Part shown: positions 28,453 through 52,441 of the stretch, in pieces
Numbering within the stretch: position 1 is the first letter of the stretch
Layout: the number at the start of each line of letters is the position of its first letter
Assembly (NCBI GenBank): GCA_934047225.1
Contig: OW203991.1
Coordinates: 7,812,001 to 7,876,000, forward strand
Reading direction: 5' to 3'
From: Ypsolopha sequella
Lineage: Eukaryota > Arthropoda > Insecta > Lepidoptera > Ypsolophidae
Length of the DNA: 64,000 nucleotides
The notes under the pieces: model-generated
Seen by the model: only the letters and a program-made list of their open reading frames with translations
Databases searched by the model: none
What the model was told of the DNA's origin: nothing
Program-made: the position numbers and the translations under genes

Positions 28453-30927
28453 ATGATGTCATCGGAGGAGGAGGCCGACTCACACGCGCCCTACGGAGAT
28501 AAGCTTCTAAAGAAACAGAAACGCGCCAGACAGCGCGTGGACGCCGGTGAGCCGCGCAATTCTTACTCGACTCTAGTGACGAACGGACCAGCGCCCGCGC
28601 GCGCCGCACATCCGATGAGTGGAGGACTTTACGGTGCCATCTTCGAAGGCCGCCAACATTTCGGCCTGTTCGGCCCTGGCTACGCGCCGGCCGAAATGTT
28701 AAACGAGCTCCTCGGGCGTACGCCCAAGCAAGAGGACTCCGGCGAGGAGCCTTCCGGTGGAGACATCGCGCACCGAGTGCTGCGAGACATCCTACAGAGC
28801 CGAAAAAAAGATTTACTTCGCATCTCGCCCGACAACAACAACGTGTTAGCAAACAATAATAATGACGAACCCAAAAACGAGAAACGATCTCCGGAGCGAC
28901 CGACTTCGAGAGATTCTCGGCCCGACCTCGATGACGCCTTGCTCGCTCTCGATGGAGCCGGAGACTCGCACACTTCACCGCCGCCTTCATCAACACCTGC
29001 AGAAGCTCTGCTGGCACCCAAATCAGAACCGGAGGATAGTGACGCGCAAAGATCTTCGCCTAGACCTCTCGATGTGAAACGTGCGCGTGTTGAAAACATA
29101 GTGTCTACAATGCGTGCTAGCCCTGCTCCTCAGCAGCCACAAGTGAACGGTTGCAAGAAACGGAAACTTTACCAGCCGCAGCAACACGATGGCGCAGCCG
29201 AACGCTATGGTACTAGCCATAGCAGCAGTGCTCAGACAGTGTCCGATGATTCCGAGGATGACGGCGACCGACCACCAATACAACAAAAGTTAGTAGAAAA
29301 AAATGCATTAAAATCTCAACTAAGAACCATGCAAGAGCAACTAGCAGAAATGCAACAAAAATACGTACAACTTTGTAATAGAATGGAACAAGAATCAGAG
29401 ACAGTGGACAATGATGGTGCTTCGAGTGATATAGAACAAAATGATGAACCTATGCCAAAATCAGAACCCGCATCACCAGCGAAAGAAGTACCCCCTCCGA
29501 TTTCTAACAGTAACACACCAAACGTTCTTTCACAAGTGATGAGCAAGATGATGTCTGCGAAGATACATGCGCACGCTGTTGGACACCCGCACCTTCCGCA
29601 TGGATTCAATGGTATGCCAATGATTCCACACTTACCACCCGGTGATCATATGCACCATCCACATCCGCATCACAACCTTAATAATGCTGCTGCTATGTAC
29701 CTAAATGTAAGCCAAAAATTATTTATGGAGCAAGAAGCACGAATGAAAGAAGCTGCAGAGCATCAACAAAACCAACAAAACAGCCAACAACAGAGGCCTC
29801 AGTCCAATCAACCCTCACCTCAGCAACGATCTCAACTCGGACAAACGCCCAAACCACCGCTATCCTCAGAATTGGCAGAACGGTTAGATGCCCTGCGAAG
29901 CAGCGCAGGATCAGTGGGCCCCGTTTCAGGTGCTGACCTTGAGGGACTTGCGGAGGTGCTAAAAAGCGAAATCACGGCATCTCTTGCCACTTTGATTGAT
30001 TCAATAGTCACACGTTTTGTAAATCAGCGACGAATAATGGGAAAACAGTCAGAAGCAGCAGCTGCAGCAGCAGATCAACTGAACAAAGATTTGATGAGAG
30101 CTACAAGGCTAATAGAAAGAAAATCACCGACACCGAAGCCCTCTGAGAGACCACCGGTGCAGATGTCAGGTAACACACCTATTCATCATGCTGCGGGTCT
30201 CCCCAACGGGGTCCCGTCATTTATGACACATAATCAGATTTTGATGAGTCAGATGAACGGTCCCCGTGCACCGGGTGGCGCGGCGTTCCCGTCGCTGCAC
30301 CCCGAAGTGGGCGGGCCTGGACATGGACCTCACGTGCGGCCTCCAACAGGCATGTTCCAGGGACCTCCCAAGTCGCTCAGCCAGTCCCTCTACGCGTCGA
30401 TGAACGGACACTTCGAGCGAGAACCCAACCCCGAGCAGAACGAGGCGCTCAGTTTGGTCGTGACACCAAAGAAGAAGCGACATAAGGTGACGGACACTCG
30501 CATCACGCCACGTACCGTCAGCCGCATTCTCGGTGAAGGCATGGGTCATTCACCAGAAAGCAAATTCCCTGAATCGCCCTCGCCACGGCCGTACCCGGGT
30601 GGCATGGCGCTGCCCACGTCTGTAGCGATCCCGAACCCCTCGCTGCATGAAAGCCAGGTGTTCTCGCCATACTCGCCTTTCTTCCCCGGCGGTGGCATGG
30701 CCAGATCGCCTCCCGCGCCAGAGCGTGACTCTCCCCCGCTGCCACCACCGCCACTGCTGCACCCAGCCCTACTGGCGGCGGCACCTGACTACCTGCGGCA
30801 CCACCACGCGCAGCTAGCCCACCACGGACCACCAGGCCACCTTCCAAATCACCAGAGCTACGACGCGCTGGACCCGCACTCCGACTGCAACTCCACAGAC
30901 CTGCCTTACGACGGAGTTCAGCCTACT
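28453..30927 (+). CDS. pros: prospero coding exon 1 (residues 1-825)
   Basis: The start is the first ATG of MMSSEEE; an in-frame TAG at 28435-28437 supports it. Visible blocks: basic [12 protein letters not shown] (17-28); HFGLFGPGY then [10 protein letters not shown] (69-89); [15 protein letters not shown] (207-221), shared with PROX1; [11 protein letters not shown] (234-244), a basic nuclear-localisation-like block; a predicted coiled coil, [20 protein letters not shown] to about residue 316; His-rich (372-407) and Gln-rich (438-464) low-complexity stretches; a conserved helix [20 protein letters not shown] (507-526); the [20 protein letters not shown] block (671-690); and a Pro-rich tail. 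The exon ends at the threonine codon 30925-30927, immediately before ATATCCTTTT. GC content is far above that of the flanking DNA. Confidence 0.93.
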
Positions 30928-33900
30928 ATATCCTTTTCAAATAGATATACTAACCGAATTTCTTTCAGCTTAGTTGGCTCTAGTTACGTGTCAGTTCAAT
31001 ACGATAAAGTAAATCCAATCTAGGGGGTGGTGTAAACGCAAATCCTTGCGACCGAGACACCCACAGATATCTTATTTCTGTAGTATTTAACCTTACGACT
31101 GCATGTCGCCCGTTTCCTACTTAGTGGTACGATTGTGGAAGCCTTACAAACGTTGCGGTTTCTACGCTTTCCACGCACCTATGTCGTTAACTTTACGGGG
31201 TGGATAGAAACTTACCCATTTTCTAATTCAATTAATGATAACTTCACTTCACCCATCTTATCAGTTTGCTTAACTTTTCCCTTATACATACGTAATATTC
31301 CACATTCTAGGAATTCACAGGAAAGTAAAACAAAACCTTTTTTTTCCCATGCCATATTGCATTTTGTGTGACGGTTAAGGCACATTATAAGATTAGATGC
31401 ATGCGGATTAGCCATTGTGGAGCTTCAGTACAGCCTACGTCGTTGTAACGTAGGTAACTCAATCCTTTGATAAAAAATCACTATATTATCGCTATATAAA
31501 CTACCCAGAGAGAAGTACCAGAAAAGGTACATTACAGCTTTTCACAAGGGTTCAAAAATAATTAAACAACAAAAAAAGTTTCAGTATTTTATGAAATGTA
31601 TCGCCAAAAATTTTGATTGTATATGTCGTGTCAAAACCAGCACAATGATTCCTTAATTCCACTGCACTCCTCAACGTTGACGCCGATGCACCTTCGCAAG
31701 GCCAAGCTGATGTTCTTCTGGGTGCGGTACCCCAGTTCAGCGGTGCTGAAGATGTACTTCCCAGATATCAAGTTCAACAAGAACAACACCGCTCAGCTCG
31801 TCAAGTGGTTCTCCAATTTTAGGTAAGTCTTTTCAGCCAGTTATTTAACGGAAGCATTCGGATTTTAAAACATTTTTCTGTCTGAGTTTGGAAGGAAGCG
31901 TTCTAAAATTAACAAAATGAAGTATTTCATGACTGTAAAATAAAAGTACGAATGTTTTTTATCACGTTCAGTTGTTTTACGCCTTTAAATCAATCGATTA
32001 AGGACCCCTTAATTTAGATTACCAAATACCCTGATTTCTTAATTCTAGGGAAACGCAGTAAAACGATTATAGTCCAATTCCAACTTCTTAGCCCCCCTGT
32101 ATAATTGAATTATGTAGAAGCTGAAGGGTTATGAATTCACTATTTCCTCATTAATTTTAGTTTAGTAAAGAGGGGTCATCCCAAATTTCGATGACTTATA
32201 ATTTTATCGTTTCCTTTTTGATTCCTACTTCCTTTTAACAAACATGAAAATTTAATATCAATTTAAAAAAAGTAAATTAATTTTTTTAATTCTTAATGGA
32301 ATACAATACTTACAATTTAGTACATAACTACCTAATTTATAGAAAAAGAAGTGCGACTCCCTCCCCATAGACAAACCAAATTTCTACTTGGTTTTGTGGG
32401 ATGTATTTAGATTAAGTTATCTTTGAAATAAATCAACATATTCATTCATTCATTCATTCAAATAAAATCAATAATTTCCGATAAAGAAAAGCTAATCCCT
32501 CTATCATATTACTTACAATCTAATCCTTCATTGCTTTATACAATAGTATGCTAAACGACACAAAAAAAAAATTATCACCTCTCACGTACGGTAAAACTTT
32601 TTTGATAAGACTTCGGGCTTGAGATATGAAAGCTTTAATATAAAAGTTGCGTATCTGTATATTTTCAAGTGCTCAGCAAACATTGACGTGTGCGATAGAG
32701 GTAAAGCCTTAGAAAGGGTTGGTTATCTAGAGCGTAAGTGGCAGGTGAGCCTTATCTCAGGCAAAGATAAGAGCAAAATTAGTTCAGCGGAAATCAATAC
32801 GGTACAGGGAATATTCCGTTACTTTTGCTCTATGGCGTACTAATTTGTTGTTATCGGAGACAAATGTATACTGTATTCGACATTCGTGTTTTCCTGGATT
32901 AACGCAGTATCATTTTGTGTTTTATTTGTAAATTAAAAATTTGAAAAAATATATATTGTATATGTTTTTTTTTTATATTAGTTCATGTGCATTTATTGAC
33001 AAACTTAACTAAAAACTTAAATAACATTAAAAACTTAACTAAAGATGACCTAAAAGTAAAAAATCCAACAAAGCAAACCTAAAATAATTACAATAAATAG
33101 AAAATACTGTATATGTTATATTTCACTCTTTGTTCTTAATATTTTGGCCGTTCGATACACGATTACTTGCATTTTCCTGCATCTAATAAAATGTCGAAGA
33201 TATCTAAACTATTATATCAATGTCATTTCATTTGATTTAAAACATACAAAAGTAAACGTCGTACAAAATATGATATAAAACGGCCGTCATATTAAAATAA
33301 TAAATGCTAATTCCAAAATAATAAATAAAAACACCTCAAAATCGCGAGTTTTTTGAGCGGCCCACTTTCACTGAGCGGGAAAATAAAAGCGATGGATTAG
33401 GACTGATTTCTCAGAATAAGAGAAAACAAGAAATATGTAAAAGCTTTGAATTTATGATAGTTTGCTACGACGGTGGCGGGCGCGGCGTATTTCTTGCTAC
33501 ACGCTACGAGGCGTAGCAAGCGAAAGTGCAACCAAAATACATCGTTGAACTAAAAAAATATTTTACTTATATAAACACAAATATAATAAAGTGTGTTTTA
33601 AGTTTGAGTGCCCATTAATTTACAACGTAATGCATTAAATAATAAAATTTTGCCAGAAAAGCCTAACTGATATTAAACTATATTCGTGATATGTCATAAA
33701 TCACATTTATTTTATATCTTTAATTAAAAAATAAGAAGAACCATCTTAAGTTATGCGTTTCGTAGTAGACACGAATCGTTACCCCTTAAGGAGGTTTCTC
33801 GTGAAAATTTACGCTTTTTGAAGTTATTTATCTGCTCTTTTAAAGAAGTTCCAAGAAAAATAAATTAGTATAACAATTTTGGAACCTTTTTCTAGATTTT

Positions 33901-48900: not shown

Positions 48901-51900
48901 AAGGTGAATCTTTGACTAAGTATAACTTATAATTATTATATACAAGGCGAATTTGTGAACATCGTCCAAATTCATACTTAAGCCTTGGTAAGTGATCAGC
49001 ATCATGAACTAATAACGATTTTTGTAAAATTCATAAAATTAAATTTCGACTCCCCATAGTGATTCAGTCAGGACTGGGAGTGAATTACTATGGGATGTCG
49101 AAATTTCTGTATACAGATTTCACAGAAATTGTTATCGATTCATGATGCTGATCACTTACCAAGGCTCCAGTATGAATTTGGACGATGATCAAAAAGTCAC
49201 CTTGTATAGAATTCTATACGTAGTATTATATTATCTGTTATAATAGTGATGTGTCTACTTACTATAAATTGTACTGACCAATCACGTTGAAGAACTTTAG
49301 TACAAATACATTAGATATTATGCTTGACACAAACCAACCAAGTTTATTTATTTATGTAAAGGTTCACCAACAGGTTAACACCAAAAGGAATTACACAAAA
49401 TTACATTAAAACTAAGTTTGGGGTGCAACCCAATTGTAGGTAAACAGAGCGTCCATTGTTAATAAGAACAGTTAATAAAAAATTTATGTTTACGCTCACA
49501 AAATTAAAACAAAAAAAAAAATTAAGAGACAGTCCTGTAAAACTACCAGAGCAAATAAATTAAACGTAAAACAAAAAAAAATTAAGATAAAAAAATTAAT
49601 TAAAAAGTTACATTATACATTATAATATATATAATCGGGTCTACCGCGATCAATTTTTACTTTTTTTACGAAAAGGGGACAGACTTTTTTAAGAAAAGGG
49701 GAAACGTCGGGTGTCTACTTTTTGTAAAAAAGGTAAAAACTGATCGCGGTAGACCCGATTATATGTATTATAATGTGTACGACACGCGAGAGATTAAAGT
49801 TATATAGTTACATTATAAGTTATAATACTTAATTATAATTATAAGTAAGTAAGTTATCAAGAAAATATATTTTTGCAAAAAAACAAGCCAATGTATAACA
49901 CTATTTTACAAAACCTGTGTAATTTAAGTTTCATACTTGTTGATTTTTATATAAATACATAAATATTCGTAAAAATAGTTGTTTATATACGTTATAATCC
50001 GCCGATTTCAATAAACCGCCATTCGACGGGATTTTGTGGTGGCAGATTAGCGGGACAGTACTGTATGTCACTGATCAAATCACACTTAGACGAAAGAGGT
50101 GTGTCCGTATCGTAGCAGATGAAGATCTGTGATCTCTGTTTACTGAAATTAATCTTATTCTTAAACCCAGTTCAATATTAACCACATGTTTCGATGTCAT
50201 CGACGTTATCAATATTACATTTAACTTGTTAAAACACCAGAGCACTTTGTACACCCACTTAGACAGTTATTAGTAAGTATGTAATTATTTTAACGACACA
50301 TCAAAAGTGTGTACTCAAAATAATCTTATTCCATTATCACTTCTAATATGTAACATCTGGGACGAATTACAGCTCCAAATAAATAATAAATACAAGTTTC
50401 AAAGCATACTGCTTAAAAAATAACACGGTGATCACAATCTCGATGCTAGCTAGCCAAAAATTTGAATTAATCTTCAATTAATACAAACGTAACATATCAT
50501 ATTATATATGTATCTGATTAAATCTCACATACGCTGCACACTGTTCAGCGACATATTGGCCAAAAAGACAATTAGTAAAGACTGCTGCGGTACTACGAAG
50601 TGCCAATTAAAAATAATCGGGCCTAGAGGTGCTACAGTGTGCGAGCGAGACAGTATACCATAAGGGCTTTAGAGATGATCTTCAGCGATCGGTATTGACA
50701 TCGGTAGGTACTTTAGGACTTTTGGAGGATGGAATATCGGAGGAATAGCAGTGTGGATGGATTGCTTTTTTTACGTACGTGACAGTAGATAATGTTTGTT
50801 TGTTGACAATTTCGTATCAATTGATGTAAAATCCATAAATTGACCGAAATATATTTATTTAAAAGCAAATATATGAATGAAAATAACAGTTTCAATACTA
50901 GAAAAAAATATAATGAAAACAGTTAACTAATCTAAAACTAAGTGTAAATGACCTTTCAATAGGTTACGATACGATACCTTTTACATTCCGCGCCTGTATT
51001 CTCGTTTTCACGTCGGCAACGCATCGCCTGCAGAAATCTAAAAAGCGAATTAGCTGTCCTGAATGCAAACGTAAGTAATTAGCCTCGCGAGACTCTCGAT
51101 GCGGGCTGAGCAACCAGCACTTGGCGCGGGGACTTCCGAAATGATGTGTTACCGAGACTCACGTCACAAATACACCTTGGGGGATCATAAAAAAACTATA
51201 TATACAAAATAATACTTGACGGACTGCTGATCTATCAACTCCTAGGCTGGATCTAGAAACATCAAATTTGGACTGTGTGTTTCTTGTATGACGTAGAGAT
51301 CTGCTAGGAAGGTATTTTAGGAAATTCCCACGGGAGACACAGGATCTACGCATGCAACGCTGCGGGGCGTGTACTACTTAACTAGTATAAAATAATCGCA
51401 AGAGATATGTAACCCAGTTTTAGAATATCTATAAAGATTTATGAAAGTTTAAGGGTTCAAAAATCCGATTATAAATATAAATATTCAAAAATAAATTGGT
51501 ACAGATCTTTGTATGTAGTAAAATCAGATAGGAATCACCCAGCTCTCGTCACCGATGTGAAGAAGATAGCGATGTGAACGAAACAGGCTAATCAAATCCT
51601 TTCCCACCTACTCAGCGGACTCTAGTGGCTGTCATAACGACATTTCAAAATGGCGTCATTTTCAATTAAGTGCTCGCGCTTATTGTGACGTTCTTGCGTC
51701 TACAGAAGTGCTCATCGAAAAATAAATAAAAATATTTTCGCTGCATAAGCATTAGCATGCAATTAGCAATATATGAAATTTTTATTAATAAAATCGCAAA
51801 AATTAATGTGCAGTCTACATACTGTAAAACGGCCTCAAAGATAAATATCTTGTTTTTTTTTAACGTTATCTTTCTCTTTTTACAGGGAATTCTACTACAT

Positions 51901-52441
51901 CCAGATGGAGAAGTATGCTAGACAGGCCATCAGTGAGGGTCTGAAGACTGCAGAGGACATTCACGTAGCTGGCGATTCAGAGCTATACAGGGTGCTCAAC
52001 TTACATTACAATAGAAACAACCACATTGAGGTGAGCATCTTCTAATTTTCCACTTTTCAACTTAGTTTAGTTCAAAACACAACAATGTGAAATCATTAAA
52101 ACCACTTTTGCCTATGGGAAACGAAATATTATTTTTGTATTAATAAAATCATTTCAAAAAATTTTAATTACATTAATAATTTCCGAGTTCATTTTTATTT
52201 TGTTTCAAATTAAAATAAGTAAAAGAAGCTAAACTTTAATATTCCTTATCCGGTTTTTCAGGTACCCACGAATTTCCGGTACGTGGTTGAGCAGACTCTG
52301 CGCGAGTTCTTCCGCGCCATCCAGGGCGGGAAAGACACTGAGCAGAGCTGGAAGAAGTCCATCTACAAGGTGATCTCGCGGCTGGATGACCCGGTGCCCG
52401 AGTACTTTAAGTCACCCAACTTCCTCGAGCAACTAGAGTGA
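28453..52441 (+). CDS. pros: Prospero homeo-prospero transcription factor, whole coding span (four exons)
   Basis: Join 28453-30927, 31668-31822, 51886-52030, 52262-52441 gives 984 codons plus TGA. Prospero is a nuclear DNA-binding protein that switches neural and endocrine progenitors from self-renewal to differentiation (family knowledge). Evidence for identity is the complete homeo-prospero domain at residues 826-984, with the recognition-helix string [20 protein letters not shown] and the C-terminal [20 protein letters not shown]. The N-terminal MMSSEEE start, the [20 protein letters not shown] block and the LYGAIF and FGLFGPGY motifs are also prospero-specific. All splice junctions keep frame: phase 0, phase 2, phase 0. 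Residues K871, N875 and E878 have the spacing of the base-contacting residues in Drosophila Prospero. Upstream exons that are wholly untranslated cannot be seen. Confidence 0.96.
30928..31008 (+). CDS. pros: Possible long-isoform extension, 5' part (27 codons)
   Basis: If a nested U2-type intron is used, the frame continues past 30927 to AAA|GTAAAT at 31008/31009, adding [20 protein letters not shown] then VSVQYDK. The GTAAAT donor is moderate and is the best of four phase-0 GT sites here; the others are followed by TGGC, GTCA or TCAA. Without any splicing the frame ends at TAG 31021-31023, giving 856 residues with no DNA-binding domain. Confidence 0.4.
31641..31667 (+). CDS. pros: Possible long-isoform extension, 3' part (9 codons)
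   Basis: CCAG at 31637-31640 is the only AG between the in-frame TGA (31614-31616) and 31668, so it is the only acceptor that could give an in-frame longer form. It adds HNDSLIPLH before the domain. With the 27-codon part it would make a 1,020-residue protein. The polypyrimidine tract is poor, so use would be weak or regulated. Confidence 0.4.
31668..31822 (+). CDS. pros: prospero coding exon 2, N-terminal homeodomain
   Basis: Encodes residues 826-876 and two bases of codon 877: [20 protein letters not shown], then [20 protein letters not shown] and [11 protein letters not shown]. This covers homeodomain helices 1 to 3 with the recognition helix Lys (871) and Asn (875). The exon ends AG|GTAAGT, a strong U2 donor. 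The preceding intron is the AT-AC one. Confidence 0.95.
31823..33785 (+). other. Intron start: AT-rich sequence without recognised repeats except a microsatellite
   Basis: An ATTC microsatellite lies at about 32,441-32,460 after AAATAAATCAACAT, a likely retroelement end in direct orientation. At 33,508-33,526 TTGCTACACGCTACGAGGCG then TAGCAA forms a short hairpin. Short open frames here lack any support. Confidence 0.45.
33786..34105 (+). mobile_element. TTAA MITE, family R, copy 3
   Basis: From TTAAGGAGGTTTCTCGTG to ATCACCTTAA. It includes GAACCTTTTTCTAGATTTTG and AACAGCTAAATTATTGGTTA as in other copies, but the interior is shortened. Confidence 0.55.
34342..34872 (+). repeat. TTAA-ended repeat, family S, copy 1
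   Basis: The right end is GTATGCCATTCTCTTAA. The body shares long blocks (GTGATCACTAGTATTACGCG, TTATTGTGCTGGACGGGTAA) with 42946-43221 and, reversed, 44102-44541. The left limit is uncertain. The 111-codon frame at 34358-34693 is internal to it and is not called a gene. Confidence 0.6.
34885..35336. repeat. Small dispersed repeats
   Basis: About 34,890-34,990 is an imperfect palindrome (TGAAATTGGTGAAATTTTCT; AGAAAATTTCGGCAATTTCA) with GAATTACAGGAATTATGAAC, as near 5,420. About 35,005-35,080 (GACAGCGCCATCTGGAGGAA, AGCTAAGAACTAA, GAGAAAAACGCTCATTA) is repeated at 58,625-58,700. Confidence 0.5.
35337..35761 (+). mobile_element. TTAA MITE, family R, copy 4
   Basis: TTAAGGCGCCACGG on the left and CATATCGCCTTAA on the right are inverted ends. 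The interior is essentially complete and serves as the reference for seeing what is inserted in the copies at 3364-3975 and 59030-59678. Confidence 0.75.
36200..38800. promoter_or_regulatory. Repeat-poor intron segment, candidate enhancer region
   Basis: I recognise no transposable element across about 2.6 kb, although neighbouring intron sequence is dominated by them. It has higher GC than its surroundings and many TAATTA homeodomain cores (36250, 36791, 36827, 37378, 37440, 37848, 38019, 38088, 38602). A 14-bp palindrome CGTGGCATGCCACG lies near 38,391. TAATTA is also frequent by chance in AT-rich DNA, so the function is inferred. Confidence 0.3.
38801..39437. other. Unassigned intron sequence
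   Basis: AT-rich, no recognised repeat or gene. Confidence 0.45.
39438..39705. repeat. MITE with about 80-bp near-perfect inverted arms
   Basis: The left end TACAACGTGTAACAGAAAGG and right end CCTTTCTATTACACGTTGTA are complementary. Pairing continues inward through TTCAGTCAATGGTATAGAAC and AACTTTTACTATG. The centre is short and not coding. Confidence 0.85.
40090..40395 (-). pseudogene. C-terminal fragment of a non-LTR endonuclease/reverse-transcriptase ORF
   Basis: The minus strand reads [20 protein letters not shown] then [20 protein letters not shown] and, after breaks, [20 protein letters not shown]. The RWFxHxERM...GRxRxGRPRxRW...DRxxW pattern is the C-terminal region of insect non-LTR retrotransposon polyproteins (family knowledge). 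Frameshift and stop mutations show decay. The RT domain is not present. Confidence 0.7.
40510..40690 (-). repeat. Reversed retroelement 3' tail
   Basis: AATAATAATAAAATTCTTTA then TTGCACTAAAAATTTGTACA and CTTCCAGTTAACTTTTGG match the tail family at 18987-19107, with the simple repeat at the element's 3' end. Confidence 0.5.
40691..42732. other. Unassigned intron sequence
   Basis: No gene or repeat is recognised. Overlapping frames on both strands at 41908-42247 have GTGCGC-rich composition and no domain. Confidence 0.4.
42733..42915 (+). repeat. tRNA-derived SINE
   Basis: The head GGTAGCTCAGGCGGTAGAGA (box A) and CCAGGTTCAATCCCCGGTCG (box B) have tRNA-like spacing. The acceptor stem does not pair, so it is not a tRNA gene. 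The tail contains GAAGGAAAACATCGTCAGGA then AACCTGCATG, a block I recognise from widespread lepidopteran SINEs. The copy ends within 15 bases of the next repeat. Confidence 0.8.
42946..43221 (+). repeat. TTAA-ended repeat, family S, copy 2 (left-truncated)
   Basis: Begins inside the element at AACTTGATTTCTTTTTCAT and ends GTAGGCCATCCTCTTAA. Close match to the second half of 34342-34872. Confidence 0.65.
43508..43933 (+). mobile_element. TTAA MITE, family Q, copy 3 (best preserved)
   Basis: TTAAGGGGCTCCACAATGCT at the left and AGCATAGTGCAGCCCCTTAA at the right are inverted ends of more than 20 bp with TTAA at both borders. 426 bp, no coding. This copy defines the family termini. Confidence 0.8.
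44102..44541 (-). repeat. TTAA-ended repeat, family S, copy 3
   Basis: The end TTAAGAAGATGGCATACCCT is the inverted form of the 34872 end. Blocks appear in reverse order relative to copy 1 and stop near TTTTTCAATACAAGGAGAGT. Confidence 0.65.
44542..45374. other. Intron sequence with one weak palindromic element
   Basis: About 45,199-45,325 has imperfect inverted ends (TATGATACACGGGCATAAAA; TTTTCGCCCTTGTAGCATAA), probably a decayed MITE. The rest is unassigned. Confidence 0.4.
45375..45490 (+). pseudogene. Reverse-transcriptase fragment of a non-LTR retrotransposon
   Basis: The frame reads [20 protein letters not shown] then [16 protein letters not shown]. QxGFRKGRSTxxAI is a core RT motif of insect LINE elements (Jockey/CR1-like). 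Only about 40 codons remain; the sequence then turns into AT-rich DNA, so it is an isolated relic. Confidence 0.7.
45491..45955. other. Unassigned intron sequence
   Basis: The minus-strand frame of 88 codons at 45549-45815 has no recognised domain and is probably chance. Confidence 0.4.
45956..46372 (+). mobile_element. TTAA MITE, family R, copy 5
   Basis: From TTAAGGCGAAAAAAATACGA to CGCATAGCCCTTAA. Very similar to 26876-27278. Its final TTAA is also the first TTAA of the following element. Confidence 0.7.
46369..46505. mobile_element. Short TTAA MITE with TTAACCCGTC ends
   Basis: The left end TTAACCCGTCCTTTGTCC and right end GGACACGTGACGGGTTAA are inverted with few mismatches. The 137-bp element shares TTAA 46369-46372 with the preceding MITE. 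Confidence 0.7.
46506..48940. other. Intron sequence with tRNA-like and other repeat fragments
   Basis: The minus strand at 47,405-47,455 reads GATAGCTCAGTGGTTAAGAC, a SINE box A-like head. 47,762-47,870 has two blocks of CCGCTTCGCTC, as in common arthropod repeats. From about 48,395 ACCGAGTCTCCACTATGAAT resembles an end of the ACAAGGTG MITE family. Overlapping frames at 48438-48735 on both strands fall in that element and are not genes. Confidence 0.4.
48941..49206. repeat. MITE with TACAAGG(C/T)G ends
   Basis: TACAAGGCGAATTTGTGAAC at the left; AAAGTCACCTTGTA at the right. Inner GGTAAGTGATCAGCATCATG and CATGATGCTGATCACTTACC pair perfectly over 20 bases. Confidence 0.75.
49207..49630. other. 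Unassigned A-rich intron sequence
   Basis: A-runs and AT-rich DNA. ACCAACCAAGTTTATTTATT around 49,340 may mark a reversed retroelement end. Confidence 0.35.
49631..49762. repeat. MITE with 22-bp perfect inverted ends
   Basis: Positions 49631-49652 and 49741-49762 are perfect complements (core AATCGGGTCTACCGCGATCA). Inner TTTTTACTTTTTTTACG and GTAAAAAAGGTAAAAA also pair roughly, as does GGGGACAGAC with GGTGTCTAC. ATAT-rich flanks extend the symmetry. Confidence 0.85.
49763..51164. other. Unassigned intron sequence
   Basis: No recognised gene or repeat; AT-rich. Confidence 0.4.
51165..51370 (-). repeat. Lepidopteran retroposon-like repeat, reversed copy
   Basis: Reversed copy of the repeat at 24300-25170 without insertions. 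CTGCTGATCTATCAACTCCT, CTAGGAAGGTATTTTAGGAA and CAACGCTGCGGGGCGT correspond to its landmarks. Confidence 0.6.
51371..51885. other. Last part of the large intron
   Basis: No repeat recognised. Ends with the T-rich acceptor tract TCTTTCTCTTTTTACAG. Confidence 0.5.
51886..52030 (+). CDS. pros: prospero coding exon 3
   Basis: 145 nt: one base completing codon 877, then 48 codons, [40 protein letters not shown] and YNRNNHIE (residues 878-925). It links the third homeodomain helix to the Prospero domain, which packs against it as one folded unit (family knowledge). Glu878 is the equivalent of the third DNA-contacting residue. Donor GAG|GTGAGC. Confidence 0.96.
52031..52261 (+). other. 231-bp phase-0 prospero intron
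   Basis: GTGAGC donor and TTATCCGGTTTTTCAG acceptor. Short, AT-rich, without repeats. Confidence 0.95.
52262..52441 (+). CDS. pros: prospero coding exon 4, C-terminal Prospero domain and stop
   Basis: 59 codons and TGA (52439-52441): [40 protein letters not shown] and [19 protein letters not shown] (residues 926-984). This is the conserved C-terminal helical half of the homeo-prospero domain, complete to the last residues expected in insects. In family members it masks an export signal in the homeodomain and orients it on DNA. Confidence 0.97.

Follow-up and report, generated by a model that had tools for sequence, protein, structure and literature searches.

Prospero regulates the fate of neural stem cells, and in the 64-kb stretch of Ypsolopha sequella DNA analysed here (the window) the exon that opens its homeo-prospero DNA-binding domain is preceded by an apparent intron with AT-AC termini. 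This locus raises the question of whether the intron is taken out by the minor spliceosome, and whether the major spliceosome provides a second way to a DNA-binding Prospero in this moth.

The corresponding intron of the fly is well described. In Table 2 of PMC2831892, fly pros is entered as AT-AC and as a twintron, and human PROX1 as U12. In the accessible text of PMC3564746, the fly prospero intron is the first twintron, with AT-AC U12 sites around a GT-AG U2 intron, and the U2 product is 29 residues longer; the U12 intron is regarded as ancestral and the U2 sites as having arisen early in insects, and both insect twintrons seem fixed, with no type switching seen. The accessible part of PMC8329584 also presents fly prospero as a twintron whose inner intron is U2-type, with a purine-rich enhancer, bound by Hrp36/Hrp38, setting the balance. 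Because the Drosophila intron is a twintron, the homeodomain form of the fly is made by either spliceosome (PMC3564746, PMC8329584, as far as their accessible text goes). The nested intron and the longer protein were absent from a first-pass annotation of the moth locus. The intron itself is thus a published case, of which the moth gene is a clean lepidopteran instance, and the open interest now lies in the fate of the twintron.

Sites, frame and gene model

The intron spans 30928-31667 on the + strand of the window (740 nt, phase 0), as judged from its letters, the joined gene model, a boundary test and lepidopteran protein junctions. AT-AC U12-type introns have the consensus 5' splice site ATATCCTT, a branch site resembling TTCCTTAAC that lies some 10-13 nt upstream of the 3' end, and an AC 3' end without a long polypyrimidine tract ahead of it. 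Here, ATATCCTTTT at 30928-30937 agrees with the 5' consensus, and TTCCTTAAT at 31649-31657 follows the branch-site consensus in 8 of 9 letters; its final letter is T, C being commoner at that position. The adenines of the branch site at 31655 and 31656 lie 12 and 11 nt before 31667, and the 3' splice site CAC (31665-31667) closes TTAATTCCACTGCAC, which by inspection holds no long polypyrimidine tract. The first-pass annotation had named the same letters at the intron start and the same spacing of 11-12 nt between branch site and CAC end, and both hold. An earlier CAC at 31660-31662 was rejected by inspection as a 3' end, being out of frame and too close to the branch site.

In the large prospero exon, the coding sequence runs from the ATG at 28453 to Thr825 at 30927, as defined by the open frame, the joined model and relatives. 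Joining 30927 to 31668 is in phase 0 and brings T825 next to S826, counted from ATG 28453. The first homeo-prospero domain exon (31668-31822) extends up to WFSNF and a split Arg codon and ends in AG|GTAAGT; together with the next homeo-prospero exon (51886-52030) and the last coding exon (52262-52441, ending in EQLE and then TGA), all on the + strand, the joined sequence encodes an uninterrupted Prospero of 984 aa ending in SPNFLEQLE, in which the previously proposed Thr825/Ser826 junction is reproduced. The intron at 31823-51885 interrupts the homeo-prospero domain; it measures about 20 kb and has ordinary strong GT-AG sites.

Compared with the 30 best-scoring relatives fetched, the protein of the large exon shows 75.7-84.1% identity and is closest to Prospero of Achroia (84.1%), Aphomia (83.3%) and other moths. 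From 31668 on, the exon aligns with Prospero chain 1mij, which we take to be from Drosophila, over 52 residues (split Arg included), all of them identical (E 1.1e-30), and with PROX1 chain 2lmd, presumably human, with an E-value of 4.4e-19. It has a single match in the 866.8-Mb genome.

Position and phase of the intron ahead of the homeo-prospero domain are those expected of an ortholog of the known prospero intron. The moth intron and the twintron of Drosophila melanogaster are in the same gene and share AT-AC termini, U12 type and, at the level of the protein junction, the place before SSTLTP; isoform X5 of D. pseudoobscura reads QPT|SST, exactly as the moth junction does. The claim that Drosophila prospero has a homologous AT-AC intron is borne out by this junction and by Table 2 of PMC2831892. 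The intron had also been dated to the common ancestor of flies and moths, which is right but too shallow: because a U12-type intron also occupies this place in human PROX1 (Table 2 of PMC2831892), the intron is far older than that ancestor.

In the boundary test, which combined 50 donor with 60 acceptor positions, QPTSSTLTP arose from just two pairs, 30927/31668 (AT-AC) and 30926/31667 (TA-CA); no GT-AG pair among these positions produced this junction. By themselves, the motifs are unremarkable in 64 kb. ATATCCTTT occurs once per strand in the window versus 0.57 expected per strand, and a looser pair (ATATCCTT followed within 3 kb by TCCTTAA[CT], a T in front being optional) gave two overlapping matches at one site of the + strand and none on the - strand; 200 simulations under a first-order Markov model gave an expectation of 0.25 for each strand. 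These counts are not significant. We reject a chance motif match because the motifs sit exactly at a junction fixed by homology, so it is position and frame, and not the motif counts, that speak against it.

Folding of the intron RNA is ordinary (z -0.60; 7 of 20 shuffles fold at least as well), and no Rfam family matched the 64-kb window at the gathering score. At 30946-30968, at most 41 nt from the U12 5' splice site, TATACTAACCGAATTTCTTTCAG looks like a U2-type branch site with a 3' splice site. The AG ending at 30968 in this TACTAAC...TTTCTTTCAG arrangement is the best acceptor of the intron (7.3 bits), and the peptide that this stretch encodes is not retained in the read-through and insert models of moths that were examined.

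Minor-spliceosome RNAs in the genome

The same genome contains an snRNA gene for U11 (88.7 bits) and two for U12 (90.6 and 89.7 bits), all above the Rfam cut-off; the U11 and U12 profiles had no match in 14 control genomes. The two U12 genes are on separate contigs (C5:9634289-9634437 and C22:3227956-3228104) and are identical at 141 of 149 positions, differing at 8.

All 10 positions of ATATCCTTTT can pair with the U11 match of this genome (its bases 2-11), 8 as Watson-Crick and 2 as G-U pairs. This pairing is non-specific, as 25 positions on the + strand of the window, the intron site included, pair as fully; it counts as support only and is weak alone. TTCCTTAAT pairs at 8 of 8 positions (one G-U) with GTAAGGAA of the U12 RNA of this genome, with one A bulged; the bulge of the branch-site A was imposed by us.

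Taken together, 30928-31667 is very probably the lepidopteran copy of the ancient prospero/PROX1 U12-type AT-AC intron, with the minor spliceosome joining on the homeo-prospero domain. From the sites, the frame, the homology and the U11 and U12 genes, we infer that the intron is spliced in this animal as follows. U11 would recognise ATATCCTTTT and U12 would pair with TTCCTTAAT, whereupon the minor spliceosome would take out the 740 nt and join Thr825 to Ser826, so that the protein acquires its homeo-prospero DNA-binding domain. A message that keeps the intron would read on in the frame opened at ATG 28453 for 31 further residues ending in VNPI (30928-31023) and stop at TAG (31021-31023), giving a protein with no homeo-prospero domain.

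A nested pair of weak candidate U2-type sites

Inside the intron, candidate sites for a nested U2-type intron are found on the + strand in phase 0, with AAA|GTAAAT at 31009-31014 as the 5' splice site and CAG at 31638-31640 as the 3' splice site. Both are weak. Using splice-site weights that approximate insect frequencies, and two donors and two acceptors of prospero as controls, the donor at 31009 scored 4.4 bits versus 10.3 and 10.7 bits for the ordinary donors, and the acceptor at 31640 scored 3.9 bits versus 9.5 and 13.3 bits for the ordinary acceptors. As high a score is reached by 7.4% of the 3463 GTs and by 16.8% of the AGs in the window. The donor at 31009 is the best phase-0 donor ahead of the stop, and the AG at 31640 is the only one past the last in-frame stop before 31668, with the frame staying open to the homeodomain. 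Removal of 31009-31640 would add 36 residues (29 in the Drosophila long form according to PMC3564746, as far as accessible) and leave an open protein of 1020 aa.

Just downstream of the candidate donor, the + strand reads TAGGGGG (31021-31027), which we liken to an hnRNP A1-type binding motif. By analogy with the purine-rich enhancer of the fly described in the accessible text of PMC8329584, this G-rich element may perhaps promote nested U2 splicing.

Forms of Prospero across orders

Protein models of other arthropods were compared at the same junction. Three protein searches (best 120 of 1011, 100 of 100 and 120 of 270 matches) gave 156 distinct Prospero representatives, and two of the three queries carried the candidate insert, which biases the sample toward long forms. 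Representatives were clustered at 90% identity, so that a single cluster may contain both the short and the long isoform of a species, and they are not equivalent to species: among the Lepidoptera, two entries each come from Vanessa tameamea, Achroia grisella and Chilo suppressalis, among the beetles four come from Photinus pyralis, and others repeat. Orders were assigned by us from species names, and the representatives are largely gene models. Among the 156, 15 were classed as 'other insert' and 3 were without the KAKLM landmark; the rule for 'short' also admitted a few near forms such as P0067 (PT|IS).

Among the matches listed, the 37 named lepidopteran representatives comprise 22 short forms (Manduca, Spodoptera, Papilio, Pieris and Danaus among them), 7 with inserts, 5 read-through forms and 3 without the KAKLM landmark. 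The seven inserts range from 6 to 47 residues and are mutually unlike. Among the matches listed, the short junction recurs in beetles (7 of 33 representatives), flies (7 of 26) and Hymenoptera (5 of 8). Long forms account for 25 of the 33 beetles and 18 of the 26 flies listed and are related within each of these two orders; the beetle Photinus pyralis has both a long (P0063) and a short (P0095) form.

The inserts were scored for an ISF start, which is what ATATCCTTT would encode in phase 0, and for the end pattern [SPA][LI][TNSI]xx[HNYF], corresponding to the SLTPLH-like end that TTCCTTAAC would encode. Among the matches listed, start and end were found in 24/25 and 24/25 beetle, 17/18 and 18/18 fly, 2/2 and 2/2 hymenopteran, 0/2 and 2/2 mayfly, 3/3 and 1/3 hemipteran and 7/7 and 3/7 lepidopteran inserts. 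The single louse and the single stick insect insert listed each have the start (1/1) and lack the end (0/1), and the crustacean inserts listed show the start in 6/7 and the end in 0/7. Chain 1xpx (Protein prospero) begins with the tail of such a long-form insert. Judging from protein sequences alone, the U12 signals appear to double as codons of the long protein made by U2 splicing.

Other explanations of the locus

It is unlikely that the moth intron is a working twintron as in Drosophila, from which the major spliceosome also removes 31009-31640 and so adds 36 residues. Such a twintron would fit the shared phase 0 of the two candidate sites and the open 1020-aa product, the commonness of long forms among the beetles and flies listed (25/33 and 18/26), the branch-site pattern at the end of 3 of the 7 lepidopteran inserts listed, and the early origin of the U2 sites in insects given in the accessible text of PMC3564746. 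The insert would, moreover, end in PLH, matching TPLH before SSTLTP in chain 1xpx, but this match adjoins the branch site, whose sequence may in part dictate it. Both candidate sites are weak, unlike the situation in Drosophila, and the seven lepidopteran inserts listed differ from one another and from the candidate, whereas 22 of the 37 lepidopteran representatives listed are short. Going by these sites and proteins, the nested U2-type route of flies and beetles would be at best weak in this moth.

Quite improbable is an intron that serves mainly as a retention switch, the unspliced message ending at 31023 and encoding Prospero without its DNA-binding domain. The ends of 5 of the 37 named lepidopteran and 10 of the 22 unnamed representatives, among the matches listed, do fall inside the intron, two of them in named isoforms (Anticarsia X1 and Galleria X2), and one ATTAAA is present at 31561. 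Gene callers restricted to GT-AG sites would, however, give the same ends as artefacts, and the tails past ISFS vary between species, so no peptide is conserved. That an ordinary U2-type GT-AG intron has been mistaken for AT-AC is scarcely credible: although GT-AG introns form the majority and a weak nested GT-AG pair is present inside the intron, no tested GT-AG pair yields the short protein of the 22 of 37 lepidopteran representatives listed.

Dependence on the minor spliceosome and fate of the twintron

Returning to removal of 30928-31667 by the minor spliceosome, it is plausible that the DNA-binding form of Prospero relies on U12 splicing in this moth, as the first-pass annotation had proposed, because the nested U2 sites are weak and the seven lepidopteran inserts form no shared long form. 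Most simply, moths would have retained the U12 half of the twintron while the U2 half decayed, a reading in which isoforms hidden in the 90% clusters and errors in gene models could mislead. That Lepidoptera resolved the twintron toward the minor spliceosome, with the U2 half decayed, all DNA-binding Prospero made via U12 and retention as the sole alternative, is a tentative proposal to which we give somewhat less than even credence. If it is true, the loss would run against the usual drift from U12 to U2 described in the accessible text of PMC3584512, and the genes of fly, beetle and moth would form a natural series for studying the role of the long isoform and the gain and loss of a twintron. 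Should moths have given up the U2 route, a protein that regulates neural stem cell fate would hinge on the minor spliceosome across an insect order.

In human PROX1, the orthologous U12-type intron (position from Table 2 of PMC2831892 only) is listed as U12 and not as a twintron; the moth gene would resemble this state if its U2 half was lost. The nested introns of SRSF10 in the accessible text of PMC8329584 are alike in that an AT-AC U12 intron encloses U2-type sites and the spliceosomes are chosen between, but the gene is unrelated and the choice there decides whether an exon carrying a poly-A site is included.

Loss of the U2 half in Lepidoptera is possibly new. A search by titles and abstract openings found no literature on the prospero intron in Lepidoptera, with PMC3291851, on insect U12 introns, as a possible place of earlier notice; the words Lepidoptera, prospero and twintron do not occur in the accessible text of the 2023 survey PMC10639083.

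The long form in crustaceans

Among the matches listed, 6 of 8 crustacean Prospero models (P0112, P0113, P0119, P0121, P0135, P0143) have an ISF insert at the same place. These six are gene models, and none of their inserts ends in the branch-site pattern. They would date the long form before the insects, earlier than stated in the accessible text of PMC3564746. The barnacle Pollicipes (P0142) reads SNLSF...SLTSEH before SSTLTP and keeps the branch-site pattern; its start, LSF, is not encodable by ATATCCTTT in phase 0, and the U12 5' splice site may have been changed or lost in this species.
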